Assembly (NCBI GenBank): GCA_017461365.1
Contig: JAFTYG010000007.1
Coordinates: forward strand, 1-46,122
DNA: 46,122 nucleotides
Reading direction: 5' to 3'
From: Clostridia bacterium
GTDB taxonomy: Bacteria; Bacillota; Clostridia; Oscillospirales; CAG-272
Shown: positions 9,739 to 46,065 of the stretch, in pieces
Layout of the letters: each line of letters opens with the position of its first letter
Position numbering within the stretch: the stretch's first letter is position 1
The notes under the pieces: model-generated
Database searches by the model: none
The model's input: the letters and a program-made list of their open reading frames with translations, nothing else
Told to the model about the DNA's origin: nothing
Position numbers and translations under genes: made by a program

Positions 9739-10903
9739 TCTGTGCGCCGACATCGGATATAAAAGTATAAATCACATAGGAGAGGAGCTCTGCGGCGACC
9801 ACGTGGATATAGTAGAGGACAGCGACGGCTCTACAGTCATCGTTCTTGCCGACGGACTCGGAAGCGGCGTAAAGGCAAGCATACTTTCCACTCTCACCTC
9901 AAAAATAATCTCAACGATGATGGCGGCGGGCTTGCCGATAGAGGACTGTGTGTCCACCATAGCGGGCGCGCTCCCCGTCTGCTCTGTGCGAGGCGTGGCA
10001 TATTCGACCTTTACCATCATACGCATACTTAACAACGAGTGGGCGGAGATAATACAGTACGATAATCCGCACGTTATCGTTATAAGAAATTACGAAAACT
10101 ACGAATACCCCAAGACCGAAATGAATATCGGTGGAAAGCGGATATTCAAAACGACCTTAAAGCTCTGCGAGGACGACGTGTTCATCGCAATGAGCGACGG
10201 CTGTCCACACGCGGGCATCGGAGACGTGTATAACTTCGGATGGAAGCGTGAGGATATAATCGGTTATATGCAGGCGCTCGTCACGGGAGGATATACCGCA
10301 AAAAATCTGTCCACAATGCTCGTCGACGAGTGCGACAGGCTCTACGGTCATAAGCCGGGTGACGACACCACCGCCTGCGTTGTAAAGATACGCAAGCGCG
10401 AGCCCATGAATATCCTCTTCGGTCCGCCCTCAAACAGAGACGATTGCGATCTTATGATGTCGCTCTTTTTCTCAAAGGAGGGTAAGCATATCGTCTGCGG
10501 AGGAACCACCTCGTCTATCGCGGCAAAGTTCCTCGGCAAGCCCCTGCGCGCAAGTCTTAATTTCGAGCGCTCGGACATCCCCCCGATAGCCGAGATCGAG
10601 GGCGTCGATCTTGTCACCGAGGGAGTCATCACGATGAACAAGGTAATACAGTACGCCAAGGATTACCTCGGAGACAACGAGCTCTACGAGGAATGGAGCT
10701 TTAAAAAGGACGGCGCGTCTCTTATAAGCCGCCTGCTCTTTGAGGAAGCGACAGACATAAATTTCTACGTGGGCAGAGCCATAAATCCTGCCCATCAAAA
10801 TCCCGATCTTCCCATAAATTTCAGCATCAAGATGAATCTTGTCGAGGAGCTCTCCGATTGCCTGAAAAAAATGGGAAAACGCATTAAAGTAAGCTATTTT
10901 TAA
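9731..10903 (+). CDS. SpoIIE/PP2C-type serine phosphatase
   Basis: 390 aa. Residues 1-225 form a PP2C-like SpoIIE phosphatase domain with metal-binding aspartates in LADGLGSG (41), MSDG (156) and GDDTT (211-212). Residues 226-390 are a less familiar extension that may bind the sensor or a target. It is encoded directly after the PAS hydrogenase with an 8-bp overlap, so it is probably the output of that sensor, dephosphorylating a Ser/Thr protein such as an anti-sigma antagonist. No kinase or anti-sigma partner is encoded nearby. The protein is cytoplasmic. Confidence 0.88.
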   Translation: MNDLCADIGYKSINHIGEELCGDHVDIVEDSDGSTVIVLADGLGSGVKASILSTLTSKIISTMMAAGLPIEDCVSTIAGALPVCSVRGVAYSTFTIIRILNNEWAEIIQYDNPHVIVIRNYENYEYPKTEMNIGGKRIFKTTLKLCEDDVFIAMSDGCPHAGIGDVYNFGWKREDIIGYMQALVTGGYTAKNLSTMLVDECDRLYGHKPGDDTTACVVKIRKREPMNILFGPPSNRDDCDLMMSLFFSKEGKHIVCGGTTSSIAAKFLGKPLRASLNFERSDIPPIAEIEGVDLVTEGVITMNKVIQYAKDYLGDNELYEEWSFKKDGASLISRLLFEEATDINFYVGRAINPAHQNPDLPINFSIKMNLVEELSDCLKKMGKRIKVSYF

Positions 10904-10920
10904 CTGTAACGGAGGTATAA

Positions 10921-12351
10921 ATGCGTAAATTCGATACAAAGGTACAGCACTTGAAATATAAGGTGCTCCGCGAGGTGGCGCGCCTTGCGTGGAAGGACGA
11001 GCTCCTCGAGCATCTTATGGACGTTCCCAAGATCATCGTCCCCGGGAACAAGCCCACCATGCGTTGCTGTGTATATAAGGAGCGCGCCATCCTCGGAGAG
11101 CGCGTAAAGCTCGCTATGGGCGGAGACAGAGACAATCCCAACACCATCGAGGTAATAGAAATAGCCTGCGACGAATGTCCCGTAGGCGGTTATGAGGTAA
11201 CAAACGCCTGCCGAGGCTGCCTTGCCCACAGATGCGAGGACGTCTGCAAGCGCGGAGCTATCACATTTGACGACAACCACGTGGCGCACATAGATAAATC
11301 CAAATGCGTAGAGTGCGGAGCTTGCGCAAAGGTCTGCCCCTACACCGCCATAGTCAGCAGAAAGCGCCCCTGTCAGAACGCCTGCAAGGTCAAGGCTATC
11401 TCGATGAACAGCCAGATGGCGGCAAAGATCGACAACAGCAAGTGCATACAGTGCGGAGCTTGCGTATATCAGTGCCCGTTCGGAGCTATAATGGACAAAT
11501 CCTATATAGTCGACGCGATAAATACCCTGAAGGGTAGCGAGGGTGAAAACGGAAAGAAGAATTACAAGGTCTACGCCGTAGTTGCTCCCTCCATATCGAG
11601 TCAGTTTACCTACGCAAAGCTCGGACAGGTCATCACGGGACTCAAGGAGCTTGGCTTCTATACGGTCATCGAAGCCGCGCTCGGAGCGGATATGGTCGCC
11701 CTCGCAGAGGCGCGTGAGCTCTCGGAAAAGGGATTCCTTACAAATTCCTGCTGTCCCGCCTTTGTTCAGTATATAAGATCGTCTTTCCCAAATCTTGCCG
11801 AGCATATCTCTCATAACCTCTCGCCTATGGCTACGCTTGCGAAGTACATAAAGGACAAAGAGCCGAGCGCAAAGGTAATATTCATCGGCCCGTGTACGGC
11901 AAAGAAGGCCGAGGCTCAGCTCGAAACGGTAAAGCCGTACGTCGACACCGTTCTCACCTTTGAGGAGCTTCAGGCGCTCTTTGACAGCCGAGACATCGAC
12001 ATATCGACGCTTGAGGAGGACGTTCTCGACAACGCATCCTACTTCGGAAGAATATTCGCGCGTTCGGGCGGTCTTACCGACGCAACGGTACAGGCTATGA
12101 AGGAGCAGAACATCGACTTTGAAATAAAGCCCGTAATATGCGACGGAATAGAAGCCTGCCGCGTCGCGCTCTTAAAGAAGAGCAAAAACGTCCTTGACGG
12201 CAATTTCATCGAGGGTATGGCGTGCGTCGGCGGATGTATCGGCGGCGCGGGATGTCTTACTCACGGCGAAAAGAATAAAGCCGAGGTCGATAAATACGGC
12301 CGCGAGGCGATGGAAAAGACTATCGCCGACGCAGTATCGGTGCTGAAATAA
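10921..12351 (+). CDS. Monomeric [FeFe] hydrogenase, probably group B
   Basis: 476 aa. A conserved N-terminal region (1-90) leads to several Cys-rich Fe-S sites, including CVECGACAKVCP (129-139) and CIQCGACVYQCP (175-186). The H-cluster domain (about 215-470) has motifs NSCCPAF (277-278), FIGPCTAKKAE (325) and EGMACVGGCIGG (435, 439). Thr is replaced by Asn in the first motif, and Gln-Pro is missing after the third. It would interconvert protons and H2 with ferredoxin. A GGAGG ribosome site lies 17 bp after the phosphatase stop. The operon context suggests either a second reporter or the enzyme controlled by the upstream sensor. Confidence 0.9.
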   Translation: MRKFDTKVQHLKYKVLREVARLAWKDELLEHLMDVPKIIVPGNKPTMRCCVYKERAILGERVKLAMGGDRDNPNTIEVIEIACDECPVGGYEVTNACRGCLAHRCEDVCKRGAITFDDNHVAHIDKSKCVECGACAKVCPYTAIVSRKRPCQNACKVKAISMNSQMAAKIDNSKCIQCGACVYQCPFGAIMDKSYIVDAINTLKGSEGENGKKNYKVYAVVAPSISSQFTYAKLGQVITGLKELGFYTVIEAALGADMVALAEARELSEKGFLTNSCCPAFVQYIRSSFPNLAEHISHNLSPMATLAKYIKDKEPSAKVIFIGPCTAKKAEAQLETVKPYVDTVLTFEELQALFDSRDIDISTLEEDVLDNASYFGRIFARSGGLTDATVQAMKEQNIDFEIKPVICDGIEACRVALLKKSKNVLDGNFIEGMACVGGCIGGAGCLTHGEKNKAEVDKYGREAMEKTIADAVSVLK

Positions 12352-12364
12352 ATACAAAATTGAC

Positions 12365-12407
12365 AAAAGCAATAGTGTCGGCTCGTCGAGCCGACACTAT
12401 TGCTTTT
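12365..12407. terminator. Strong bidirectional terminator
   Basis: A perfect 21-bp inverted repeat with a 1-nt centre, flanked by A4 and T4 tracts. It separates the convergent hydrogenase operon and P-type ATPase gene. Confidence 0.9.
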
Positions 12408-12428
12408 ACTTATTGTGTTATTATGACA

Positions 12429-15113
12429 TCAATTATTTTCAGCCTTCTTCACTCTCGCGTTGTGCACGAGTCTGTGGATGACCTTATAGACCTCCATAAC
12501 GACAAGCGGAACAAAGATAAGTCCGAGAGCTATGAGGTAGAGCTTCCAATCAAGATATACAAGACCGAAGATCGCGTTCAAGGGAGTAAAGAGAACTACC
12601 GACATAAGAACGATAGCCGCAAGTGTTGCAAGGTTAACGTACTTGTTCGAGAAAACACCTATGCTGAATACCGAATGGTCAGAACGCATATTGTAGGTGT
12701 GCACCGCCTGAGACAGCGCAAGTATCATAAACGCCATCGTACGTCCTGCCGCGATCTTCGCCTCGGGAAGCTCGCTGAGTCCGAATACCTGACCGCAACC
12801 GATATAAAATCCGATAAGCGAAAGCACCGCGAACATAACGCCCGAGAATACTATCTTAAAGCCGAGTCCGTGAGCGAAGAGCCCCTCCTTCTTGGGCTTG
12901 GGCTTCTCGTCCATTATTCCCTTTTCAATAGGCTCCATTCCAAGCGCTATTGCGGGAAGGCTGTCGCCGACAAGGTTTATCCAAAGAAGCTGCATAGAGA
13001 GGAAAGGCGAAACGCCCGATACCATCATCGAGAAGAATACGGCAATGACCTCGGAAATATTCGTTCCGAGCAAGAAGCCAACCACCTTACGGATGTTGGA
13101 ATAAATTCCGCGTCCCTCCTTAACGGCGTCAACGATGGTAGCAAAGTTGTCGTCGGTAAGAGTCATGTCGGACGCGCCCTTTGCAACGTCGGTACCCGTG
13201 ATACCCATAGCGCATCCGATGTCAGCCGCCTTGAGCGCGGGAGCATCGTTTACACCGTCACCCGTCATAGAAACGACCTGATCCTTTCTCTGCCAAGCCT
13301 TGACTATGCGTATCTTGTTTTCGGGAGAAACACGCGCATATACAGAGATATGCTCTACCTTCTCGTCGAGCTCAGCGTCTGTCATAGCGTCGAGCTCAGC
13401 GCCCGTTATCGCCATGTCGCCCTCTTCGAAAATGCCTATCTCACGCGCGATCGCCTGAGCCGTGATAACGTGGTCGCCCGTGATCATTACGGGCTTGATG
13501 CCTGCCTTGCGGCAGATAGCAACGGCATCCTTTGCCTCGGGACGGGGAGGATCTATCATACCCACAAGTCCCATAAAGGTAAGCTCACTCTCAAGCTCCT
13601 CACTCGTAGGCTCTTCGGGAACCGTGTCAATTATCTTGTATGCAACCGCAAGCACACGGAGAGCATCGCGGCTCATATCGTTGGTTATCTGTCTTGCTTT
13701 TTCAATGTCGCCGCCGATGCATTTTGACGCCATTACGTCAAACGCGCCCTTGACTATAACGACGTTCTTGCCGTCAATAAGGTTTACTGTCGTCATCAGC
13801 TTTCTGTCAGAGTCAAAGGGAAGCTCGGCAAGTCTCGGATATTTTTCATTGAGCTCGCCCTTCTCGCTTCCGTTTCTGTGCGCCGCTAAAACGATAGCCG
13901 TCTCGGTAGGATCTCCGATATGCTGCTCGCCGTTCTCACCAAAGATGACCGAGCCGTCACAGCAAAGCGTACCGTATTCAAGAAGCTTTCTTACGTCTGC
14001 TCCGTTTTCCTTGGAGATCTTTTCGATCTCGCCGCCGTCAACGTAAGCCTTTACAAGCGTCATTCTGTTCTGCGTAAGAGTACCCGTCTTATCCGAGCAG
14101 ATGACCGACGCGCTTCCGAGAGTCTCAACAGCGGGAAGTCTGCGGATAAGCGCGTTTTTCTTTACCATGCGCTGAACACCGATGGAAAGAACTATGGTAA
14201 CAACGATGGGAAGTCCCTCGGGGATAGCCGATACCGCAAGAGATACGGCAACCATGAACATTTCCATAAGGTGATCCCAGCCGTTTGTAGCGATACCTAC
14301 GACAAATACTATAGCGCAGGCAACGAGAGCTACGACGCCAAGGTATTTTCCGAGCTTTGCAAGCTTCTTCTGCAAAGGCGTCTGCGAGTCGCCCTCGTCG
14401 TTGAGAAGATTTGCGATCTTACCCATCTCGGTGTTCATACCGATGCCCGTAACCACAGCCGTCGCCGTACCGTAGGTTATACTGCATCCCGAGAATACCA
14501 TGTTCGCTCTGTCACCCAGAGGCGCCTTTTCGTCGACAATTACGCCTGCATCCTTTTCAGAGGGCACAGACTCACCCGTCAGCGCCGACTCCTCGGATTT
14601 GAGGCTCACGCTGTGCAACAGTCTTGCGTCGGCAGGAACAAAGTCTCCCGCCTCGAGCTTGATGATGTCACCGGGGACGAGCTCGGACGCGTCTATAAGC
14701 TTCTCCTCGCCGTCGCGTATAACTCTCGCGTGAGGCGCGGACATACTTTTAAGAGCATCAAGCGCCTTTTCAGCCTTACTCTCCTGCATAACGCCCATGA
14801 TAGCGTTGAAGATAACGATTATCAGAATGAGCGCGGGCTCGAAGAACTCCATAGGATCTCCCTCACCCGTAATGAATACCTCATATCCGACTACAACAGC
14901 GGATATGACCGCCGCCAAAAGAAGAATGATGATCATAACGTCCTTGAACTGATCAAGAAAACGGCCAAATCCCGTCTTCTTCTTCTTTTCACGGAGCTTG
15001 TTTTCGCCGTAGGTCTTTCTCCTCTTCGATACCTCCTCCGAGGTAAGACCGCTCTCGGCATTTGTGGACAGCTCTCTCAGAATGTCTTCCGAATCTTTAC
15101 TGTGGAATAACAA
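12429..15113 (-). CDS. P2-type cation-transporting ATPase (Ca2+/Mn2+ export)
   Basis: 894 aa, full length. Visible in order: cation ATPase N-domain, membrane helices 1-2, actuator loop with LTGES (178-182), helix 4 motif AIPEGLP (ion site), phosphorylation site CSDKTGT (Asp 341), hinge TGDGVND, and helix 6 [13 protein letters not shown] like SERCA and PMR1. It would pump Ca2+ or Mn2+ out of the cytoplasm. The leader carries a yybP-ykoY riboswitch, which responds to Mn2+ and in other Firmicutes precedes such ATPases; this favours Mn2+ as a physiological substrate. Start: ATG with a GGAGGG site. Monocistronic. Confidence 0.95.
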
Positions 15114-21580: not shown

Positions 21581-21628
21581 AGTGTTAGTATTATGGGATT
21601 GTTTACAATAAATTTTGACGGAGGAATC

Positions 21629-24403
21629 ATGTATAATATTATTTTCACTGTTTCACTTATCATTCTCCTTTTGCTTTTCGTAGGACTTACACTCCTCAAA
21701 GGCAAAAGACACGTCTGGTACTACTCGGTATCAAGAATAGCATCTATTCTTATATCGGGCGTGGCGTCATTCTTCCTTTCGGGCTTGCTCTCAGACGTTA
21801 TCGCGGATGCAGTCTACGGTATCCTCATAGATAAGATACCCGAAAACGTCAGCGGTATCCTCAACGATCTCGCCTCAGCCCCCAATGTGTTCAGCGCCCT
21901 TATCACGGCTCTGCTCGCGCCCATCTTCTTCGTTATATTCTTCTTCATTCTTAAGATCATCCTCAACTGCATAGCAAAGAATATCTGCATAGCGGTCGGT
22001 AAAAATCAGGCTAAGAAGAATGCGTCGGCAGAAGAGCCCGAGAAAAAGGAGCTCAGCGAAGCAGAAAAGGAAGCAGAAGCGACCGCCGAAAAGACCGAGA
22101 CCGTCGAATTGACCGAAACGGCAGAGACGACCGATACACCCGTACTCACCGAAGCGTCGGCAGAGCCCGACGGCAAAAAGGCTAAGAAGGCTAAAAAAGA
22201 AAGGACAAAAGAAGAAAAGCCGAAAAAGATAAAGAGAAGCAGCTACGCCCTCACACCCAAGGCAAACGCCGTCGGTATGCTCTGCGGCGCTTTCTGCGGA
22301 CTCCTTATGTTCTTCGTCATAATGGTTCCCTTCGTGGGCGTTGCGTCGATTGCTGACGAGGTAATGGATCTTGTCACGTCGATCGTAGCTCAGGAAACTC
22401 TCCTAACCGTCAATGAAGTGACCGACGGCGCGGCAAATAATCCCGTCTCCAAGACCTTCGGAACCGTCGGCGGAAAAGCCGTGTATAACGGACTTACCAC
22501 CACAAATATCGACGGAAAGCACAAAATGACACTCAGTGATGAGATACACCTCATTACCACCGCTGGCGACGCCGTTATGGCAACGATAAATAACGACGTG
22601 CCCCGCGACGAGGCGGCGGCATCCGTCAGAGAGGTAGAGGTGGCATTCAATGACTCCGATCTGCTCCCCGTCGTTCTCCCCGAGCTCCTTGCCGCGGCAA
22701 ACGAAAGCTGGGAAAAGGGAGAGGACTTCCACGGTATCGAAAAAATAACAGCCTCGGGCAGAGCTCAGCCCGTTGTCGATCACTTGGTGGAGATACTTGT
22801 CACCTCCGATTACGACTCGCTCAAATCTGACACCGAGACCGTCATTGAGATACTCGCCATCCTTGTCGAGCATGACGCTATAAATACAGCCATCAACGAT
22901 CCCTCAAGCATCCCCGCGCAAGAGGAAATGACCGCGCCCGTATTTTACGAGCTTCTTAAAAACGAACGCTTCTCTCCCATGGTCGGCACGCTTGCCGAGT
23001 TCGGAATACAGTATATAGGCGATCAGTTCCAACTCCACGCACACCGCGACGCGCTCTATTCCGAATTCATAACCGAAGCGACCGAAAAGACCGCGGCGGT
23101 TCTCACGCTCGACGAGGGCTACCGCCCCGAGCAAATGGAGCAGACCTATATAAACCTCTTTGACGACTACGGCTTGGACGTGTCCGAGGACTCCGCAAAG
23201 CAGACCGCCGCTCTCGCACTTGAGGAATTCTCCGACGGAGCAGTTACCGAAGAGAGTATGAAAGCCTTCCTTGCAAAGACCGAACTGACGCTTAACGACG
23301 GAAACGTAATAAAGCTCGACACGGCAGATACGCTTGCGCATAATAGCCTGATTATCTGCGTGGACGAGATAACCTTCGATATGAGCAAGGTTCCAGCCAC
23401 CGAGACCGAGTCTGAGGCGCTTGCCAAGGCGGTACATGAGATATTCACAATGACAAAGGTGCTTTGGTCGGGCGAATTTTCCGATCCGAGCTCAATACAA
23501 AAGCTCGGTCCTCTGCTCGATGCGCTCTCAAACACCGAGACTATGGGACACGATAACACGGCGCATCTGCTTACGGGTATCCTTCAATCCGATCTTGTAC
23601 ACGACCATATCGGATTTAGCCTTGTAGAAGCTACCGAGATGGCAAATATGATATTTGCAAAATGCGAAACACAGGGCTACACGCCCCTGCTCAAATCGCT
23701 CTCTGATACGGTCGAGGTCATCATATTCACGACCTCTGATACCGTTACAAAAGAGGAAGTGACCGCAAAGGTAGAAACGCTCCTCAATGACCTGACACCC
23801 GAATCGGCAGAGGTACTGCAACAGCTCGCCTCGACCGAGGTAATGGTAAGTCAGGGTGTTCCCGAGGCAAGCGCAGAGCCCGTCTCAAACCTTGTATCCA
23901 ATATGTTCGGAAACCTCGCAAGCTCCAAGGATAGCGGAATGAGCGAGGAGGAATATAAAAAGGAAGCCGAGGCTACGAGCAGCCTGCTCAATATAGCTCT
24001 CTCGGCTACGTCGTCGGACGGAAGCATCTTCAAGGATACGGGCGACGACTCTCAGACGGGAACAGACACATCAAAGGTAAACGGCATGACCGCCTCCGAA
24101 TATATCGACAGCGTTATGAGCTCCACCGTAATAACACAGACGATAGTAGACACGGCATATGCCGATGATGCCTCCGACAGTCCCGCGCTCGATCCCCTCA
24201 ATACGGGCAAGAGCCTCTCCGAGAGCGAGCAGACTCAGGTGCTGAATTCGCTCAACGAGCACTGGGCAAACGCAACCGAGGAGGAAAAGGCAAGCGAGGA
24301 CTACTTCAAGACCTACGCGGCTATCGGCGCAATAGTAAACTTCCCCATAGCTGTAGGTGAGGACGGCTCCCTCATCGCACAGGCAACGGAAACAGCGCAG
24401 TAA
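21629..24403 (+). CDS. Large membrane protein with CvpA-like membrane part
   Basis: 924 aa. Hydrophobic helices lie at about residues 2-20, 33-55, 85-115 and 220-250. Between the third and fourth lies a charged Glu/Thr/Lys-rich linker. The helices around the linker resemble CvpA family proteins split by an insert (KGKRHVWYYSVSRIASILIS; FFVIFFFILKIILNCIAKNI). The remaining about 670 residues are mostly helical, acidic and without cysteine motifs; they probably face the outside. The ATG at 21629 has a GACGGAGGA ribosome site. Function unknown. Similarity to CvpA is judged only from pattern. Confidence 0.55.
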   Translation: MYNIIFTVSLIILLLLFVGLTLLKGKRHVWYYSVSRIASILISGVASFFLSGLLSDVIADAVYGILIDKIPENVSGILNDLASAPNVFSALITALLAPIFFVIFFFILKIILNCIAKNICIAVGKNQAKKNASAEEPEKKELSEAEKEAEATAEKTETVELTETAETTDTPVLTEASAEPDGKKAKKAKKERTKEEKPKKIKRSSYALTPKANAVGMLCGAFCGLLMFFVIMVPFVGVASIADEVMDLVTSIVAQETLLTVNEVTDGAANNPVSKTFGTVGGKAVYNGLTTTNIDGKHKMTLSDEIHLITTAGDAVMATINNDVPRDEAAASVREVEVAFNDSDLLPVVLPELLAAANESWEKGEDFHGIEKITASGRAQPVVDHLVEILVTSDYDSLKSDTETVIEILAILVEHDAINTAINDPSSIPAQEEMTAPVFYELLKNERFSPMVGTLAEFGIQYIGDQFQLHAHRDALYSEFITEATEKTAAVLTLDEGYRPEQMEQTYINLFDDYGLDVSEDSAKQTAALALEEFSDGAVTEESMKAFLAKTELTLNDGNVIKLDTADTLAHNSLIICVDEITFDMSKVPATETESEALAKAVHEIFTMTKVLWSGEFSDPSSIQKLGPLLDALSNTETMGHDNTAHLLTGILQSDLVHDHIGFSLVEATEMANMIFAKCETQGYTPLLKSLSDTVEVIIFTTSDTVTKEEVTAKVETLLNDLTPESAEVLQQLASTEVMVSQGVPEASAEPVSNLVSNMFGNLASSKDSGMSEEEYKKEAEATSSLLNIALSATSSDGSIFKDTGDDSQTGTDTSKVNGMTASEYIDSVMSSTVITQTIVDTAYADDASDSPALDPLNTGKSLSESEQTQVLNSLNEHWANATEEEKASEDYFKTYAAIGAIVNFPIAVGEDGSLIAQATETAQ

Positions 24404-31301: not shown

Positions 31302-32561
31302 TTATAAATTCTCCTTAGCGACAACGAGCATCAGCTTTATTCGATTTTCCTGATTTACCTTCGTCGCGCCGGGATCGTATTCAATATCAACAATATTGAG
31401 TCTCGGATCTATTCGCCTTACCTTGTTCATCATACCCTTAGCCGCAACGTGGCAGGGCAGACAGCCGAACGGCTGAACGATAACGATATTTTCATATCCG
31501 TGGTCGGCAAATTCAAGCATCTCCGCCGCAAGATACCAACCCTCGCCCATACTGTTTCCAACACCGATAACACCCTCTGCCCTCTTTTTCAGATCGTTCA
31601 CACGCTCAGGCGGAACGAACGCGGGGTTTGCCTCAATGGCGGATATAAGAATATCCTCCATCTTGAACATATACTTCATAACGATCTCCATGGCAAGCCG
31701 CTTTATCTTGCTTCCGCCGTAGAGCCGCAGATTTTCAAGAGCGCCGTTTGTCTTGTAGATACCGAAGCCGAGTATGCTCGGAACGTAGACCTCGCAATCC
31801 TGCTCGGCAAGAAACTCCTCAAGATGGTTGTTTCCGGGCGCGGAATATTTAAGATACAGCTCACCTATCACGGCAACCTTTACCTTCTTGGTCTTTTCTA
31901 TCTTGATAGAAGCAAAATCGTCCGCAATAGCCCGCAGATTTTTCTTGATAGCACCGATAGAATATCCGCGCCCCTTCGTAAAGGTCTTGCCGAGCTTTTC
32001 CGTCCACTTGTCGATCATAGCGTCGGTCTCACCCTTATTGACCTCGTAAGGACGCACCTGATTGCTCACTATCATTATCATGTCGCCGTAGATAAGCCCC
32101 GCAACAGCCATAAGAAGCGTCACGGGCGTGAGATTTAAGCCGGGATTGAGCTCAAGCCCCCACATATTTGCCGAAATAAACGGCACGTCAGGATAGCCCG
32201 CCTTTTCAAACGCCTTTCGCATAAGGTGGATATAGTTGCTGTCTCGGCAACCGCCGCCCGATTGCGTTATTATCATAGCCACCTTGTCGGGATCGTACTT
32301 GCCGCTCATAATAGTAGCAAGCATCTGCCCCGTCGTAAGCATGGCGGGATAGCACATATCGTTGTGAAGATATTTAAGCGCAAGCTGTAATACCTCGGGG
32401 CCCTCGTTTTCCATTATCTCGATCTTGAAGCCCTGCCTCTCCAAAATGGGCTTTAGTATCTTGAAATGTATCGGGGCCATGCTCGGAGAAAGGATAGTAT
32501 AGTCTTTTTTCATTTTGAGGGTGAATTTAACTCTATCCCTGTAATGCGTCTTTTTTTCCAT
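31302..32561 (-). CDS. BCR/HAD-type reductase subunit, PlsR-like (2-hydroxyacyl-CoA dehydratase D-component fold)
   Basis: 419 aa. Conserved cysteines in HNDMCYPAM, GGGCRDSNYIHLMRKA and PFGCLPCHVAAKG match the Fe-S-binding part of the C-terminal third of about 1400-aa acyl-CoA dehydratase activase fusions. Here it is separate: the ATG at 32561 has a perfect AGGAGGAAGG ribosome site, and the reading frame overlaps the upstream subunit by 29 bp. A two-gene split of this kind is known for plsA-plsR of Clostridium perfringens, which make plasmalogens anaerobically. An A7 run lies in the overlap, so slippage could also join the two frames. Confidence 0.8.
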   Translation of the reverse strand: MEKKTHYRDRVKFTLKMKKDYTILSPSMAPIHFKILKPILERQGFKIEIMENEGPEVLQLALKYLHNDMCYPAMLTTGQMLATIMSGKYDPDKVAMIITQSGGGCRDSNYIHLMRKAFEKAGYPDVPFISANMWGLELNPGLNLTPVTLLMAVAGLIYGDMIMIVSNQVRPYEVNKGETDAMIDKWTEKLGKTFTKGRGYSIGAIKKNLRAIADDFASIKIEKTKKVKVAVIGELYLKYSAPGNNHLEEFLAEQDCEVYVPSILGFGIYKTNGALENLRLYGGSKIKRLAMEIVMKYMFKMEDILISAIEANPAFVPPERVNDLKKRAEGVIGVGNSMGEGWYLAAEMLEFADHGYENIVIVQPFGCLPCHVAAKGMMNKVRRIDPRLNIVDIEYDPGATKVNQENRIKLMLVVAKENL

Positions 32562-35478
32562 TACCTTCCTCCTGCTTTTTCTGATCAATAGCCGCGATAA
32601 GACTCCTCAGACGTATCTTTATCGCGCCGAGGTTCGTGACCTCATCTATCTTTATCTGCGTGTACAGATCGCCGTAGTGCTCAAGCAAACTGCGCACCTC
32701 GTCGGTCGTCAGCGCGTCAAGACCGCAGCCAAAGGATACAAGATGTACAAGATACATATCCTTCTGCGTTGACACGTACTTAGCCGCCGAAAAGAGTCTC
32801 TGATGGTATGTCCACTGGCTGAGCAGATTTACCTTGAATTTAGGTATCATACAAGCCACCGCATCCTCGGATATAACGGCAAAGCCAAGCGCCGATATGA
32901 GCTTGTGAATACCGTGATTTATCTCGGGATCTGCATGGTAAGGACGTCCCGCAAGCACAATTATCCGCTTGCCCTCTGCGCGAGCCGCCTCTGCTATCCT
33001 CAGCCCCTCGCGATTTATGTCCGCCATATAAGCGTCGTACGCCTCATACGCCTTCTTGCAGGCGCTCTTCACCTCTTTCGACGTAAACGCGCCGAAATGC
33101 TTTTCAAGGACCTTCTTCATGCGCGCGGAAAACTCGCGTCTGTTGTGAGGACCGACGTAATCGTTGATGTACTTGATAGAGCCAAAATTGAGCGTGTTCG
33201 CCTCTATGACCTCGGGGTAGCCCGCAATGACCGCACAGTTGTAGTTTCTCGCGCTCTTCTTTTCATCAAAGTTAAAGGTCATGCAGGGGTAGAATATAGC
33301 ATCAACCCCCATCTCTATAAGCTGTTGGATATGTCCGTGCATCATCTTCGCGGGGAAGCAAACTGTATCCGACGGAATAGTTCCCTGCCCCTTGAGATAG
33401 AGCTTACGGTTCGAAAATCCGCTCATCCTGACCTTAAAGCCAAGCTCGCGCAAAAGCGTATTCCAGAACGGATACATCTCATACATATTAAGCCCCATAG
33501 GCAGACCTATAACGCCGCGCGTGCCCTCACCCTCGGGATACGCCGCAAGCTTTTTGAGCTTGTACTCATAGAGATTGAGAGAGTCGTCCTGAGACTTGTT
33601 CGTAACGGGCTTCTCACATCGGTTTCCTCCGATAAATCTGCGTCCGCCGCCGAAATCGTTTACCGTAAGCTGACACTTGTTGTTACAGCCCTTGCAGGTA
33701 ACACTCTTTATCGTATAGCTGAAGTTTTTCAACTCCTCATAAGAAAGAAGACCCGAAGCACCCTCGCCACTCTTCATCTGCTTTGCATAAAGAGCCGCGC
33801 CGTAAGCGCCCATCATGCCCGCAATATCGGGGCGTATGACCTCAGCGCCTATCTCCTGCTCAAACGCACGAAGCACAGCATTGTTAAGAAAAGTACCGCC
33901 CTGAACGACTATCCGCTTGCCGAGCTCCTCTGCCGAATGAACTCTTATTACCTTGTAAAGAGCATTTTTGACAACGCTTATCGAAAGACCTGCCGAGATA
34001 TTTTCAACCGTAACGCCCTCCTTCTGCGCCTGCTTTACAGACGAGTTCATAAAGACGGTACAGCGCGAGCCGAGATCAACAGGCTTGTCACCGAAAAGTC
34101 CAAGATTTGCAAACTCGTCGATAGGATAGCCGAGAGAGCTTGCAAACGCCTGCAAAAATGAGCCGCAGCCCGATGAGCAGGCTTCGTTAAGGAATATGTT
34201 ATCTATCGCGCCGCCACGTATCTTGAAGCACTTCATATCCTGACCGCCGATGTCAATAATAAACTCAACGTCAGGCATAAAATACTTAGCCGCCGTAAAA
34301 TGAGCGACCGTTTCGACAACGCCTATGTCTATTCCGAGCGCGTTTCTCATCATATCCTCGCCGTAGCCCGTAACGGCGCTCGATATTATCTTCACCTTGG
34401 GATACTTCTCATACATTTCCATAAGCGTATCCCTTACAACGTCAATGGGCTTACCCTGATTTGACTGATACTTTGAGAATATAATAGCCCCGTCCGCATC
34501 GGTAAGCACTACCTTCAGCGTAGTAGAGCCCGAGTCGATGCCAAGATAGGCGTCTCCCTCATACTCCACCCCCTCGCGCCTCGGAACACTGTGCGAATTG
34601 TGGCGCGCCATAAATTCGTCGTATTCCAGCTTGTCGGCAAACAAGGGGCGTAAGGTCTGAGTAGCCGAGAGCTCAGACTTCTCCCCGATCTTTTCAAGCA
34701 CAGCCTCAAGATCGACCTTCTCCTCGGCATAATAAGCCGCGCCGAGAGCGACAAATACAAGAGAATCCTCGGGACATACACCCTCGCATCCGAGCGTCTT
34801 GTCAAACGCGCGCCTCAGCTCGGACAGGAAGGTCAAAGGACCGCCGAGATATACTATATTTCCCTCTATCGGATGTCCCTGAGCTAACCCCGTAATAGTC
34901 TGATTGACTATCGCGTAAAAAATACTTGCCGAAATATCTTCTTTTCTTGCTCCTTGGTTGAGAAGAGGCTGTATATCTGTCTTTGCAAATACACCGCACC
35001 GCGAAGCGATAGAATATATCTTTTCGTGATGCTTCGCAAGCTCGTTCATCTCACCCGTTTCTATCTGCATAAGACTTGCCATCTGATCGGCAAACGCGCC
35101 CGTACCGCCCGCGCAGGTGCCGTTCATGCGCACCTCAAGATTTCCGCGCAGAAAAAGTATCTTCGCGTCCTCTCCGCCGAGCTCAATGACAACGTCGGTG
35201 TCGGGAAGTCTGTTGCTTATTGCAACCTTTGTGGCATAGACCTCCTGCACAAAGGGCACCCCCGCCCTCTCGGCAAGTCCCATTCCAGCTGAGCCCGACA
35301 CGGCGCATACCACGGGCTCGGTTATATTGAATTTATCAATGAGTCCCTTTATTACCTCTCGGGCCTTCTCCGTGATCATCGCAAAATGACGCTCATAGCT
35401 TTTGTGAAGGAGCTTACCCGAGTCATCAAGCACGACACACTTGATAGTGGTCGAGCCTATATCAATACCTATTTTCAT
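32533..35478 (-). CDS. Two-domain acyl-CoA dehydratase activase with DUF2229, PlsA-like
   Basis: 981 aa. Two ASKHA ATPase domains of the BadF/BcrA/HgdC group are seen: KIGIDIGSTTIKCVVLDD at 2-19 with the cluster-binding C122 in NGTCAGGTGAF, and YLGIDSGSTTLKVVLTD from about 312 with ACSSGCGSF. A Cys pair motif CKGCNNKC and a DUF2229 domain follow. Activases of this kind use ATP to push an electron from a [4Fe-4S] cluster to a partner reductase. With the overlapping PlsR-like gene it forms the two parts of a BCR/HAD-type enzyme. The upstream A-T-R enzyme ends 13 bp before this start. Confidence 0.88.
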   Translation of the reverse strand: MKIGIDIGSTTIKCVVLDDSGKLLHKSYERHFAMITEKAREVIKGLIDKFNITEPVVCAVSGSAGMGLAERAGVPFVQEVYATKVAISNRLPDTDVVIELGGEDAKILFLRGNLEVRMNGTCAGGTGAFADQMASLMQIETGEMNELAKHHEKIYSIASRCGVFAKTDIQPLLNQGARKEDISASIFYAIVNQTITGLAQGHPIEGNIVYLGGPLTFLSELRRAFDKTLGCEGVCPEDSLVFVALGAAYYAEEKVDLEAVLEKIGEKSELSATQTLRPLFADKLEYDEFMARHNSHSVPRREGVEYEGDAYLGIDSGSTTLKVVLTDADGAIIFSKYQSNQGKPIDVVRDTLMEMYEKYPKVKIISSAVTGYGEDMMRNALGIDIGVVETVAHFTAAKYFMPDVEFIIDIGGQDMKCFKIRGGAIDNIFLNEACSSGCGSFLQAFASSLGYPIDEFANLGLFGDKPVDLGSRCTVFMNSSVKQAQKEGVTVENISAGLSISVVKNALYKVIRVHSAEELGKRIVVQGGTFLNNAVLRAFEQEIGAEVIRPDIAGMMGAYGAALYAKQMKSGEGASGLLSYEELKNFSYTIKSVTCKGCNNKCQLTVNDFGGGRRFIGGNRCEKPVTNKSQDDSLNLYEYKLKKLAAYPEGEGTRGVIGLPMGLNMYEMYPFWNTLLRELGFKVRMSGFSNRKLYLKGQGTIPSDTVCFPAKMMHGHIQQLIEMGVDAIFYPCMTFNFDEKKSARNYNCAVIAGYPEVIEANTLNFGSIKYINDYVGPHNRREFSARMKKVLEKHFGAFTSKEVKSACKKAYEAYDAYMADINREGLRIAEAARAEGKRIIVLAGRPYHADPEINHGIHKLISALGFAVISEDAVACMIPKFKVNLLSQWTYHQRLFSAAKYVSTQKDMYLVHLVSFGCGLDALTTDEVRSLLEHYGDLYTQIKIDEVTNLGAIKIRLRSLIAAIDQKKQEEGNGKKDALQG

Positions 35479-35491
35479 CGGTTTCCTTTCC

Positions 35492-38443
35492 TTATCGGAT
35501 CTTATTCATGTAGCCGAGATACCTTATACCTATCTTAGACCACTTAAATCCCAGCTTTTTCAACTCCCGTATCGTAAATTCATTACTCATCGGAATATTC
35601 TTCGACGAGGAAGCAAGCGACGTGTAGAACGACAACACCGCAACAGCCTTGTCCGTGATCATTTCCTTGAGAGACTTTTCGAATATCTCACGCGGAACCT
35701 CCTTTATGCTCCTGAACAGCTTCTTCGCGAGAGTATCGACGGTAAACATATGCGGATTGTAGAGATTGTAAATGTTGTTGACTCTGTTGTGAAGAGCAAG
35801 TCTGACGTACGCGTCGGCGCACTCGTCAACGGGAGTAAAGTCTATCGGATAGTCCGCGACCTCCTTGCTGTACACACCTACCTTTAGTATGCCTCTGCAA
35901 CGGTCAAGAAAGCCGTTGTCCTGAGCGTTTCTCTGGAACTTGCCGTCCGACATTCTCCAGGTCAGATTTCCGATACGGAAAATATTCGCCTTAAGCCCGT
36001 TCTCACGCGCAAGCAATACTCTCTCTTCAGCCTTGTATTTCGAATGAATATAGACGTTCTGAGTGTAATTCTGACCTATGTCAAGTATAAATTCGTCAAA
36101 CTTAGCGTCGGGATTTTTCTGCTCAACAGTGCCCGCGCCGTGAACGCTTGCGGTAGACGTATGCTGAAGCACAGCCCCCGAAAGCATACAGAAGTCTATA
36201 ACGTTCTGCGTACCCACGACATTTGTGCGCTCAAACTCCTCATAGTGTCCCGCATGGCTTACGTTCGCGGCGGTGTGGATGACCATATCCACCCGCTTCA
36301 CAAGCTGATCGTAATCCTCGTCCGACAGCCCGAACTTAGGCTGCTTTATGTCACCGATCCTTACCTTGTACCTGAAATATTCATGCTCCTTGGGGAAATA
36401 ATATTTCAGTATATTTTTCAGCTTCTCCTCACTGCGGACAAGACAAATAACGTGCATCTTTCTTCTGAGAAGCTCGCGGAGAATATGCGAGCCGAGGAAG
36501 CCCGTAGCTCCCGTAAGAAGAACGTACTTCACCTCATTGTTGTGCAGCATATTGGAGTTGTGCCTGATAAGCTCGTTTATGTCTATGCGGTTGTCATCCG
36601 AGGCAGCCTTGTCCTTAACCGTAAGCAATACCTTCTCAAGCTGCTCGACAGTGGGATTTTCATAGATCTCCTGAGCCTGAACGCCGATAAGCGCCGAGAC
36701 CTCGAGAGCTGCAAGGCTGTCGCCGCCGAGATCAAAGAAATCCTCCTTGATGCCTATGTTTCTGCATCCAAGAACGTTTTCAAATGCCGCGGCGATCTTC
36801 TTCTGCTCTCTCGTCGTCGGAGGAACGTGCTCAACAGTCTTTTTGGCAACGACCTCTCTGACCATTTTGATAGCTTCCTTACGCTTTATCTTGAGCGTGG
36901 TCGTCTTGGGGAAATCCCTCGAAATGAACGCAATGGAGACCATGCGCTTGTAGGGAGGAAGCGTGGCATTAAGAGCCTTAATTCCGAGCTTTATGGACTG
37001 CGTCAGATTTTTGTCATTGAAGTCGGCAGGCTGAACCACCGCGCAGAGCTTGCCCTTATTTTCGTAGACCATAACGTCCTTAACTCCGTCGAGCACCGCG
37101 ACCTGAGCCTCAAGCTCCTCGGGATATATGTTCTTTCCGTTGTCAAGGATTATCAGATTTTTCGAGCGTCCCGTTATGTAAAGATAACCGTCCTCGTCAA
37201 AATAGCCGAGGTCTCCCGTACGGAGATAGCCATCCTCAGTGAACGCTTCTGCCGTAGCCTCGGGATTTTTGTAGTAGCCGAGCATAACGCCGTCGCCCTT
37301 TACGATGATCTCACCGTTATCTATCTTAACGTCCATATAAGAAACGGGCTTTCCGACAGAGCCGAAGCGATTCATGTTCGGATAGTTTGCCGAAATAAGA
37401 GGCGAGCACTCCGTAAGTCCGTAGCCCTGATACATATTTACGCCAAACTCGTCAAACGCTTCAGCAATCTCAGGGCGCAAAGCCGCGCCGCCGACTATCA
37501 CGTTGGTGAGATTGCCGCCGAACTTATCAAGAAGACTCTTGTAGAGCTCGCGCCTTGCGTCGATCTTTAAAGTCTTGAGTATTCTGTTTACCTTCTTCGC
37601 CGCAGCGACCTTGCGCTTGTTCGGACCGCACGAAATCCCCTCCATGACCTTCTTGTAGAAGATCTCAGCGATCGTCGGAACCACAAGGATTACCGAGGGC
37701 TTAAATCTGTTGAGATTTGCAACTATATTTTCAAGCTTGTCGTTGATACAAACGGTCGCTCCGCAGTAGAGAACGCCGAGATTGTCAACTGTCAGCTCAA
37801 AGGTATGATGGATAGGCAGCACAGACATAACGATAGGATCGCTCTTCAGATTTTGAGCGAAATCCATCCGGTAAATATCGTTTATATTTGACACGATATT
37901 CTTCTGACTGAGCATAACACCCTTGCTCACACCCGTCGTACCCGACGTAAAAAGTATCTCAGAGAGCGCATCGGGATCGATCTTTGGCAGCTTTACGTGC
38001 TCGGTTCGCAGTATGTCGCGGAAGGACTTGTCCGAGAAAAGAACGACCTCTTTTACACAGTTTTCAGCCTCGGTTATCTTTCCGAGCATAGACTCAAACT
38101 CCTCGGAAAGAAATACCATATCCGCGTCTCCCATCACGAGCAGATCAAGCATCTCATCCTCAGAGAGCATCTTGTCTATCGGGATGATAACGTTAGCGCT
38201 GCACGCAACGCCGAGAAACGTAGTTACCCAACGGTAGCTTGACGAGCCGATGATAGCGATATGCTTCCCTGTCCAGCCCTTTTTCACAAAATAGGACGCG
38301 ACCGAGTTCACATCACGCTCAAGCTCAGTAAAGGACTTACCTACGACAACGTCGTCAACGATATACCTGTAAGCATCTCTGTCTCTGTACGCCTTTGCTA
38401 TTTCTTTTACATATTCCTGAAGATCGACAAGCGTCTTTTTCAC
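35492..38443 (-). CDS. Adenylation-thiolation-reductase enzyme (carboxylic acid reductase-like)
   Basis: 983 aa. A-domain about 1-525: P-loop LFTSGTTGVSKG (164-175), YGLTE (341-345), YLRTGDLGYFDEDGYLYITG (406-425). Carrier domain about 545-610 with the phosphopantetheine Ser 576 in DLGGDSL. Reductase domain about 636-983: LTGATGFLGSH (643-653) for NADPH, catalytic Tyr798 and Lys802 in VYIHSKYKAE. Such enzymes activate a carboxylic acid, load it on the carrier and release it as an aldehyde (or alcohol). There is no condensation domain. It is shorter than classic reductases of this type (about 1170 aa). Start is GTG with GGAG upstream. First gene of the Pls-like operon; the acid is probably a fatty acid (inference). 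Confidence 0.9.
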   Translation of the reverse strand: MKKTLVDLQEYVKEIAKAYRDRDAYRYIVDDVVVGKSFTELERDVNSVASYFVKKGWTGKHIAIIGSSSYRWVTTFLGVACSANVIIPIDKMLSEDEMLDLLVMGDADMVFLSEEFESMLGKITEAENCVKEVVLFSDKSFRDILRTEHVKLPKIDPDALSEILFTSGTTGVSKGVMLSQKNIVSNINDIYRMDFAQNLKSDPIVMSVLPIHHTFELTVDNLGVLYCGATVCINDKLENIVANLNRFKPSVILVVPTIAEIFYKKVMEGISCGPNKRKVAAAKKVNRILKTLKIDARRELYKSLLDKFGGNLTNVIVGGAALRPEIAEAFDEFGVNMYQGYGLTECSPLISANYPNMNRFGSVGKPVSYMDVKIDNGEIIVKGDGVMLGYYKNPEATAEAFTEDGYLRTGDLGYFDEDGYLYITGRSKNLIILDNGKNIYPEELEAQVAVLDGVKDVMVYENKGKLCAVVQPADFNDKNLTQSIKLGIKALNATLPPYKRMVSIAFISRDFPKTTTLKIKRKEAIKMVREVVAKKTVEHVPPTTREQKKIAAAFENVLGCRNIGIKEDFFDLGGDSLAALEVSALIGVQAQEIYENPTVEQLEKVLLTVKDKAASDDNRIDINELIRHNSNMLHNNEVKYVLLTGATGFLGSHILRELLRRKMHVICLVRSEEKLKNILKYYFPKEHEYFRYKVRIGDIKQPKFGLSDEDYDQLVKRVDMVIHTAANVSHAGHYEEFERTNVVGTQNVIDFCMLSGAVLQHTSTASVHGAGTVEQKNPDAKFDEFILDIGQNYTQNVYIHSKYKAEERVLLARENGLKANIFRIGNLTWRMSDGKFQRNAQDNGFLDRCRGILKVGVYSKEVADYPIDFTPVDECADAYVRLALHNRVNNIYNLYNPHMFTVDTLAKKLFRSIKEVPREIFEKSLKEMITDKAVAVLSFYTSLASSSKNIPMSNEFTIRELKKLGFKWSKIGIRYLGYMNKIR

Positions 38444-38500: not shown

Positions 38501-38529
38501 ATTATACAACATTTAAAATTAGTTGTATA
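38501..38529 (-). promoter_or_regulatory. Possible promoter of the A-T-R/Pls-like operon
   Basis: On the - strand a TATAAT (complement of 38501-38506) lies about 58 bp upstream of the GTG start. The -35 (TATACA) is poor, so regulation by an activator is possible. The rest of the 311-bp gap to trkA is AT-rich with no further element seen. Confidence 0.4.
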
Positions 38530-44842: not shown

Positions 44843-45037
44843 ATGATTATGAATAACGAAATGCCCGATCGTTGGTATTCCACCAAAGAAATTTGTGCTT
44901 ACTTGGGTATCAGTCGTGATACGATGCTTGTTTGGATTGCAACAAAGAATATGCCCGCGCATAAGGTTGGACGCAATTGGAAATTCAAGGTCAGCGAAGT
45001 TGACGAATGGATCAAGAGTGGACAAGCGGCGGAATAA
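44843..45037 (+). CDS. Excisionase-like HTH DNA-binding protein
   Basis: 64 aa. A single MerR/excisionase-type winged helix: RWYSTKEICAYLGISRDTML, then VGRNWKFKVSEVDEWIKSG. Such proteins start mobile-element or defence operons and either regulate them or direct excision. The ATG at 44843 has AGGAGAG. It ends two bases before the start of the JetD-like gene, so both are co-expressed. Confidence 0.88.
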   Translation: MIMNNEMPDRWYSTKEICAYLGISRDTMLVWIATKNMPAHKVGRNWKFKVSEVDEWIKSGQAAE

Positions 45038-45039
45038 GA

Positions 45040-46065
45040 ATGATGAAACATATAGAAAAAATAAAAAAATACGGCAAAAAGACGATTTCCAAGACGGATT
45101 TGGAGACTCTTTTTGCAGCATCTTCGGACGAGGAGCTATTTGGAATAATATCGGTTCTTTCTGAACAGAAAATCTTATCTCCAATCAAAAATTCAAAAAC
45201 GAACGGAAATAGATTATACCCCATTTATTTGAAATATAAGATATCACTTCCGCAAGATACCTATGAAGCTGAATTGAAAGAGATAAGTGCGCTCCATCCC
45301 TTACTTCAGAGTAATGGCTATTTGCAGTCAAAACCGGAAGAATATAAGAAATATCGTTTACTACTTCAAAAACTTGACCGTTATTTATTTTCTCGAAGCG
45401 TAAATGAGATTTCTATTTCTCGCAAGGAACGCTCGTTTGAAATATTCGATGAAGAAAAAGCACTTGACGATAAAACATTTTGTACCTTGCTTGAACGCAT
45501 TGGAATCACACCAAACGCACTTGCTCTTTATGATACCCCCGAATATTGCTTCAATGACTATATTCCCGACAGAAAAGCGCAAATGACGCTTTTGATCTGT
45601 GAAAACAAGGATATTTGGTTTAACATTCGCCGTATGATGTTTGAAAACAATGTAACTAACATCTTTGATACCTATATTGATGGAGTCGTTTACGGTTGCG
45701 GGAATAAGGTTAGCGGAATGGGTGCGTTGACTACATACACAGAGTTTATCGGTTCAGAGGTAAAATATCTCTATTGGGGAGATATTGATCGTGCAGGATT
45801 GAATATTTATTTGAGTGCTGTTCGTGCGAACCCCAACATCAATATCAAACTATTCGTTCCTGCTTATGAGGAAATGCTGCGTTTGGCACAGTCAAGGAAT
45901 ATTCCCGATAGCGATGATGAACGCAATCGCATTGAAGATTACTCACAGATCTTTGATTTGGTCAATCAAAATTTAAGAACTATATTTGAGCAAAGCATTC
46001 AAAACAACAAACGAATTCCTCAAGAAATCATAACCTATGCATTCTTGAAGGAGAATATGAGGTAA
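45040..46065 (+). CDS. JetD-like TOPRIM protein (Wadjet-related, DUF2220)
   Basis: 341 aa. An N-terminal winged-helix-like part (SKTDLETLFAASSDEELFG, then a basic loop) and a middle domain lead to a C-terminal TOPRIM domain: LLICENKDIWFNIRRMMFEN with the catalytic Glu, VYGCGNKVSG, and LYWGDIDRAGLNIYLSAVRA with the Asp-x-Asp pair. This is the layout of JetD, the nuclease subunit of Wadjet anti-plasmid systems, which cuts closed circular DNA after SMC-like loop extrusion. JetA, B and C are not seen in the window. The gene is AT-rich and belongs to an operon that continues to the right. Confidence 0.75.
   Translation: MMKHIEKIKKYGKKTISKTDLETLFAASSDEELFGIISVLSEQKILSPIKNSKTNGNRLYPIYLKYKISLPQDTYEAELKEISALHPLLQSNGYLQSKPEEYKKYRLLLQKLDRYLFSRSVNEISISRKERSFEIFDEEKALDDKTFCTLLERIGITPNALALYDTPEYCFNDYIPDRKAQMTLLICENKDIWFNIRRMMFENNVTNIFDTYIDGVVYGCGNKVSGMGALTTYTEFIGSEVKYLYWGDIDRAGLNIYLSAVRANPNINIKLFVPAYEEMLRLAQSRNIPDSDDERNRIEDYSQIFDLVNQNLRTIFEQSIQNNKRIPQEIITYAFLKENMR

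Follow-up and report, generated by a model that had tools for sequence, protein, structure and literature searches.

Why should the gene of a probable aldehyde-forming enzyme stand directly in front of two genes of the plasmalogen synthase type? The question is raised by an operon in a stretch of 46,122 nucleotides from a Clostridia bacterium (GTDB lineage Bacteria; Bacillota; Clostridia; Oscillospirales; CAG-272), which is contig JAFTYG010000007.1 of assembly GCA_017461365.1, positions 1 to 46,122, and which as a whole is here called the window. The three genes encode an enzyme with adenylation, thiolation and reductase domains (ATR), a PlsA-like protein and its PlsR-like Fe-S partner. We find that this unit is conserved, that its PlsA belongs to a single clade whose PlsR partners carry changed motifs, and that most of the host genomes checked possess a second, ordinary PlsA. 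The reading that we put forward, as something close to an even call, is that of a conserved and mobile operon for anaerobic lipid chemistry, in which the aldehyde made by ATR and a specialised PlsA/PlsR-like pair would serve one ether-lipid pathway. The parts of the operon are the following.

38501..38529, minus strand: promoter-like site 5' of the ATR gene, a consensus match alone
35492..38443, minus strand: ATR, 983 aa, GTG start, with adenylation, carrier and thioester-reductase domains
36854..38404, minus strand: A domain of ATR, residues 14-530, of the acyl-activating type (Pfam AMP-binding, 202 bits)
36632..36799, minus strand: T (carrier) domain of ATR, with the phosphopantetheine serine S576 (PP-binding)
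35513..36523, minus strand: R (thioester-reductase) domain of ATR, residues 641-977, YxxxK being Y798/K802 (NAD_binding_4, 154 bits)
32533..35478, minus strand: PlsA-like protein, 981 aa, with two BcrAD/BadFG ATPase domains and DUF2229 (Pfam)
32857..33510, minus strand: DUF2229 of the PlsA-like protein, which holds C707 and C748; C918 lies C-terminal of the domain
31302..32561, minus strand: PlsR-like Fe-S subunit, 419 aa; the reading frame is open to 32588 (428 aa)
32241..32243, minus strand: codon of D116 of the PlsR-like subunit (numbering of the 428-aa frame), in GGGCRD, near C114
31452..31454, minus strand: codon of C379 of the PlsR-like subunit, in CLPCH, three residues after C376

The order is ATR, PlsA-like, PlsR-like, with 13 bp between the first two genes and an overlap of 29 bp between the last two. 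Coordinates and domains thus agree with an earlier note on this DNA, which had described an A-T-R enzyme in one operon with PlsA/PlsR-like genes.

The linkage of the three genes was followed from the window's family outwards. A full-length ATR match is present in three of 118 genomes of the family, namely the window genome and two genomes of another genus (G068 and G115), in both of which PlsA and PlsR follow ATR and are 84-87% identical to those of the window; ATR was found in neither of two genus-mates of the window genome. When matches to the T-R part were sought in the order (394 genomes, E 1e-60), six genomes had one, including the window's, among which G150 and G392 have a further short ATR and three others have proteins of more than 2400 aa. 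At the level of the phylum (398 genomes, E 1e-50) ten genomes besides the window's were matched, all of them distant, at 35-39% identity and in open frames of 787 to 2653 aa. In distant phylum genomes (loci L108-L114 and L118) a thioester-reductase part 35-39% like that of ATR lies in open frames of 1440-1476 aa (787 aa in L109).

Next, the collection genome_contigs, in which 84,980 species are represented by one genome each, was scanned with five aligned ATRs, and the best 80 of 282 relatives were kept. A whole or partial ATR is present in 55 of these loci (L123-L177), and the 25 with an A domain only (L178-L202) were excluded. PlsA lies directly downstream of ATR on the same strand in 36 of the 55, and PlsR comes next where the contig continues, a few contigs ending inside PlsA or PlsR; two of the 36 (L125 and L165) are the contigs of G115 and G068 again. 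An iron alcohol dehydrogenase gene is found directly upstream of ATR in six loci (L154, L158, L159, L160, L164 and L176) and converges on ATR from downstream in L153, and neither PlsA nor an alcohol dehydrogenase adjoins ATR in five (L133, L168 and the distant L174, L175 and L177). Six loci cut by contig ends (L142, L161, L163, L170, L172 and L173) and one that is scrambled (L162) were counted apart. In 33 operon loci ATR and PlsA are separated by -1 to 104 bp, and pairwise distances of ATR and PlsA are strongly correlated (r 0.95, 32 loci, with none of 2000 permutations as high), a relationship that shared descent of the hosts would by itself also yield. Neighbouring genes are common within subclades and not between them, such that no other family occurs in more than 15 of 37 clustered operon loci. 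The ATR-PlsA-PlsR unit is conserved; the co-occurrence that the earlier note had proposed to look for is there, in the same gene order, although it does not extend to the genus-mates.

Almost all hosts of the operon are metagenome assemblies of Lachnospiraceae and further Clostridia, and many record titles name the herbivore gut or the rumen. Lachnospiraceae bacterium G41 (L156), which we take to be a cultured rumen strain, carries the operon and has both types of PlsA, and its record is not marked as a metagenome assembly. It is also mentioned as a genome in a passage of a ruminant study (PMC9562222). In 15 Lachnospiraceae operon loci an Amidohydro_2 gene lies directly upstream of ATR (for example L166, 9151-9936), and in 14 of these it is preceded by lspA. 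Thioredoxin and its reductase are encoded downstream of the operon in five other loci.

What ATR does can be predicted from its domains. S576, Y798 and K802 are each kept in 36 of 36 aligned relatives, and the enzyme should activate a carboxylic acid, load it onto S576 and release it by reduction. The long-chain acyl-CoA ligase model is the best single-domain model for the A domain (243 bits), and because this is about twice the score against the amino-acid adenylation model (127 bits), and because Pfam finds no condensation domain in ATR, the substrate is likely a fatty acid. Solely by sequence the matches are mainly luciferases and 4-coumarate ligases, and the NCBIfam models of CAR (184 bits, cut-off 1300) and AusA (274 bits, cut-off 2500) are not reached. 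The predicted structure has a mean pLDDT of 82.0 and a pTM of 0.51, and the first 50 rows of a fold search with it list adenylate-forming enzymes and synthetases that contain one. Since other loci pair ATR with an iron alcohol dehydrogenase, in what is likely a two-step acid-to-alcohol unit, the product of ATR is probably an aldehyde.

Are the second and third genes, then, an ordinary plasmalogen synthase? The two ATPase stretches and DUF2229 of the PlsA-like protein recur in all five other PlsA that were scanned with Pfam (Listeria, Subdoligranulum, G068, G41 and a genus-mate). The PlsR-like subunit directly downstream has the dehydratase fold in a fold search, and at E 0.1 no solved structure was matched by its sequence. 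C79, C114 and C376 are kept in 96 aligned PlsR (C376 in 32 of the 33 linked ones, as L138 ends before it), as are C707, C748 and C918 of PlsA. By analogy with the fold family these cysteines would bind [4Fe-4S] clusters, and C379 could be a further ligand.

Beside these conserved positions the linked pair has diverged. Two positions after C114, all 33 linked PlsR have D (GGGCRD) and all 63 others have A (GG[CG]CRA). Three residues after C376 the linked PlsR have C in 31 cases and S in one (L129), one being missing (L138), where all 63 others, the Listeria PlsR among them, have N, so that CLPNH of the ordinary PlsR has become CLPCH. The linked motifs are also present in L272, from G990, and 38 further ordinary loci have the ordinary ones. 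In PlsA the residue after C748 is A749 in 33 of 33 linked proteins (P in 60 and A in two of 62 others), I751 in 33 of 33 replaces the V of 62 of 62 others, and H912, which precedes C918, occurs in 32 of 33 as against one of 62. When one criterion was applied to four clades, the linked clade had eight specific sites in PlsR and seven in PlsA and the other clades had 0 to 4; three (PlsR) and two (PlsA) of the linked-clade sites lie within four residues of a cluster cysteine, compared with 0 or 1 in the other clades, a window which was chosen after the changes were known and whose statistics are therefore descriptive only. It may be GG[CG]CRA and CLPNH that define plasmalogen synthase activity.

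The tree gives the same division. All 33 linked PlsA among 95 rows form a single clade (SH-aLRT 100, in a quick search with no bootstrap), the sister of which is a second split kind of PlsA that occurs, without ATR, in the window's family and in Subdoligranulum. L125 and L165, which repeat the contigs of L062 and L063, were left out of the trees, as were L119 and L120 (equal to L133 and L158) out of that of ATR. The assignment of both genes to PlsA and PlsR in the earlier note thus holds at the level of the family, by domains and tree, but the linked pair forms a clade of its own, in which residues next to the cluster cysteines have changed, and for this reason it should not be named plasmalogen synthase on the present basis.

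The distribution of PlsA copies bears on the same point. DUF2229 was searched for in the genomes of 34 loci, 25 of them operon genomes. A second full DUF2229 protein is present in 21 of the 25, and the operon copy is the sole one in four (G879, G883, G887 and G892); among three more operon genomes, G068 has two such proteins and G115 and the window genome have one each. The linked PlsA is hence the only copy found in six of 28 operon genomes, including those of the window and of G115 (76% complete). The nine ATR genomes without the operon among the 34 each encode a DUF2229 protein as well. In the tree the second copies belong to two clades other than the linked one, nine with the fused kind of about 1430 aa (Listeria, Acetoanaerobium, Collinsella) and 11 with the split kind (Fusobacterium), and ATR is beside none of the 20 that were fetched out of 21, a lone AMP-binding gene being within about 5 kb of eight of the 20. 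The earlier note expected plasmalogen content to follow the operon, and with an ordinary PlsA in most operon genomes checked it need not do so.

In the loci of the split second copies (L238-L248) a gene for a patatin-like phospholipase, checked by Pfam in one locus, lies on the same strand about 1.9 kb upstream of the midpoint of PlsA in 11 of 11, and an AMP-binding ligase is encoded within about 5 kb in eight of 11. These neighbours of ordinary plsA suggest acyl-chain remodelling beside plasmalogen synthesis.

Within the order, 219 of 394 genomes have a PlsA at E 1e-300 or better, and apart from that of the window none exceeds 63% identity (G068 and G115 lie outside that sample); in the family of G41, 50 of 397 genomes have one, the linked kind being confined there to G891, G873 and G990. 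G891 and G873 have ATR with it, and the contig of G990 starts inside PlsA. In these 394 and 397 genomes no linked-type PlsA without ATR was found where the upstream side can be read.

How might the three products work together? ATR would activate a long-chain fatty acid with ATP, load it onto its own carrier domain and, using NAD(P)H, release the acyl chain as an aldehyde. Together the PlsA-like and PlsR-like proteins would make up a radical reductase that has [4Fe-4S] clusters and is driven by ATP, in the manner of 2-hydroxyacyl-CoA dehydratase and benzoyl-CoA reductase, and as a pair they would be a specialised paralogue of plasmalogen synthase, changed in residues by both clusters. An aldehyde and a free glycerolipid hydroxyl could give the same hemiacetal as the reduction of an ester, and the pair could convert this hemiacetal to a vinyl or alkyl ether. 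Bacterial plasmalogens are considered to come from reduction of the sn-1 ester in finished diacyl lipids, and it is also reported that long-chain aldehydes, not alcohols, are used by bacteria for plasmalogens (PMC9702350, citing Goldfine and Hagen 1972). A pair specialised for aldehyde input would explain the operon. The hemiacetal step is the least certain part of the proposal, and the more specific idea that the paralogue, with its extra Cys and Asp, joins or transforms the aldehyde of ATR into a lipid that canonical PlsA cannot make is a tentative one which we regard as rather doubtful.

Several observations weigh against this shared pathway. The known substrate of PlsA is a diacyl lipid, for which no aldehyde is needed, and the 243 bits of the A domain against the long-chain ligase model are under its curated cut-off of 476. 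The ATRs of L133 and L168 nest in the operon clade without an adjoining PlsA, so that an ATR without the linked pair is possible. The loop around C114 and D116 has a pLDDT below 50 at residues 110-115 of the predicted model, and in the sole-copy genomes the linked PlsA may be the plasmalogen synthase itself. The interpretation of the earlier note is supported in part: the linkage holds, and the combined route to ether lipids that it proposed is compatible with the data.

The alternative that survives best, although we consider it unlikely, is that the linked genes encode an ordinary plasmalogen synthase acting at sn-1, and that ATR is an independent reductase of fatty acids, retained next to the pair to keep the membrane in balance, for instance by converting scavenged fatty acids to aldehydes or alcohols. 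The single Pfam layout of the scanned PlsA types, the retained cluster cysteines and the six genomes with the linked PlsA as sole copy would all be expected of such a synthase, and ATR is indeed separable from the pair, having an upstream alcohol dehydrogenase in six of 55 loci and neither partner in two close relatives. However, 21 of 25 operon genomes already possess an ordinary PlsA, and the eight and seven clade-specific substitutions in PlsR and PlsA, some of them by cluster cysteines, exceed the 0 to 4 of the other three clades.

That the pair acts on another ester or position, such as sn-2 of glycerolipids, membrane-spanning lipids, or saturated alkyl ethers as made by Ger, seems to us distinctly improbable. 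A second PlsA in one genome suggests a division of labour of this kind, but the explanation leaves ATR without a role, and the double-ATPase layout proposed as a mark of Ger is shared by the five other PlsA scanned and does not single out the pair. A small-molecule pathway, to which we give less credence again, would have the radical enzyme dehydrate or reduce an acyl group on CoA or on the carrier of ATR, the R domain freeing a non-lipid aldehyde. Release by a reductase domain is typical of peptide-aldehyde synthetases, the next best T-R relatives in the order are the proteins of more than 2400 aa, and the PlsR-like subunit is folded like the dehydratases of CoA esters; yet ATR has no condensation domain and an A domain nearer to acyl-CoA ligases than to amino-acid adenylation domains, no neighbouring gene family occurs in more than 15 of 37 operon loci, and PlsA falls inside a family of lipid-acting enzymes. 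Chance adjacency without a common function, for which it can be said that some ATR genes are situated elsewhere, is very improbable given 36 of 55 loci with differing neighbourhoods and tight spacing and no operon-type PlsA without ATR where the upstream side is readable.

For the ether-lipid operon that we favour, mobility is suggested by the window genome itself, in which the unit looks horizontally acquired. Its PlsA is 54-55% identical to the PlsA of two genus-mates and 86-87% identical to those of G068 and G115, which are of another genus, while the DUF4317 protein encoded on the same contig (5682-6803) fits its own genus, being 71% and 65% identical to those of the genus-mates and having no match in G068 and G115. 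Contamination or mis-binning of the contig was considered, since the contamination of the genome is 5.8%; as the DUF4317 part fits the genus, we read the case as horizontal gain. Two other proteins do not settle the descent of the contig: TrkA has 39% identity in each of the genus-mates and 45% in G150, which is of another family, and a hydrogenase protein is unmatched at E 1e-60 in G032, the one genus-mate searched, but has matches of up to 85% elsewhere in the family (24 of 59 genomes, including the window's own).

Elsewhere in the window, a SpoIIE-like phosphatase gene lies between two iron-only hydrogenase-like genes (8062-12351), and a P-type cation ATPase is encoded on the minus strand (12429-15113). 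Two open reading frames lie opposite the latter on the plus strand (12360-13727 and 13920-15110); Pfam gives nothing for them at E 1e-8, and neither is likely to be a gene. A 936-aa frame on the plus strand (21593-24403) has no Pfam match at E 1e-5, and at the end of the window (45007-46065, plus strand) a protein with a JetD C-terminal (Wadjet) domain is encoded.

PlsA/PlsR, Ger and CAR-like A-T-R enzymes are already known, and the operon can be set against each of them. With the PlsA/PlsR plasmalogen synthase of the Clostridium perfringens, Enterococcus, Lactococcus and Listeria type the linked pair has in common the two BcrAD/BadFG ATPase domains, DUF2229, a dehydratase-like partner and the conserved cysteines, and passages on C. 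perfringens give the same gene order, plsA-plsR (PMC12838417). It differs in being a separate clade, in which the motifs GG[CG]CRA and CLPNH are replaced by GGGCRD and CLPCH, in having ATR as a third gene in front, and in the second PlsA of most of its hosts checked. The known PlsA in this comparison were those of Listeria, Fusobacterium, Acetoanaerobium, Collinsella and Subdoligranulum, the C. perfringens type being compared by description only. Ger of Thermotoga and Desulfatibacillum, likewise compared by description, is also PlsA-like with two ATPase domains, and the passages on it that we consulted mention no ATR (PMC13274423; PMC8788747). One of these states that PlsA and Ger are not yet distinguishable by sequence (PMC13274423). 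The number of domains was considered as a discriminator and set aside, as five other PlsA scanned also have two ATPase stretches. CAR and the reductase-terminated synthetases AusA and LgrA share with ATR the A-T-R order, the Rossmann thioester reductase and the kept Y and K, but ATR is smaller at 983 aa, occurs in gut Clostridia, is linked to PlsA/PlsR-like genes and scores far under the model cut-offs. The PlsR-like subunit is only 8-12% identical over aligned residues to 2-hydroxyisocaproyl-CoA dehydratase, benzoyl-CoA reductase and the double-cubane-cluster protein, and in contrast to these its partner is fused to two ATPase domains and no gene of a CoA-ester pathway was recognised beside the operon.

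Neither the three-gene unit nor the CLPCH clade was noticed as described in the open-access literature searched, which lacks most subscription papers. Anaerobic plasmalogen synthesis was tied to genes only in 2021, according to PMC9702350, and other plsA genes are described as having been expressed anaerobically in E. coli BL21 (PMC12838417). The presence of the operon in the named strain G41 should make it testable, and a clade marked by two residues by the cluster cysteines and accompanied by an aldehyde-type enzyme predicts a distinct activity and gives the residues to swap. The operon may be relevant to lipids in rumen-type communities; dimethylacetals in rumen contents are the subject of PMC3587585. 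If the proposal is true, an aldehyde-fed branch would explain at the level of genes the old report that aldehydes, not alcohols, are taken up into plasmalogens. The joint occurrence of the three genes in a number of gut bacteria of plant-eating animals suggests an as yet undescribed branch of ether-lipid synthesis in anaerobes.

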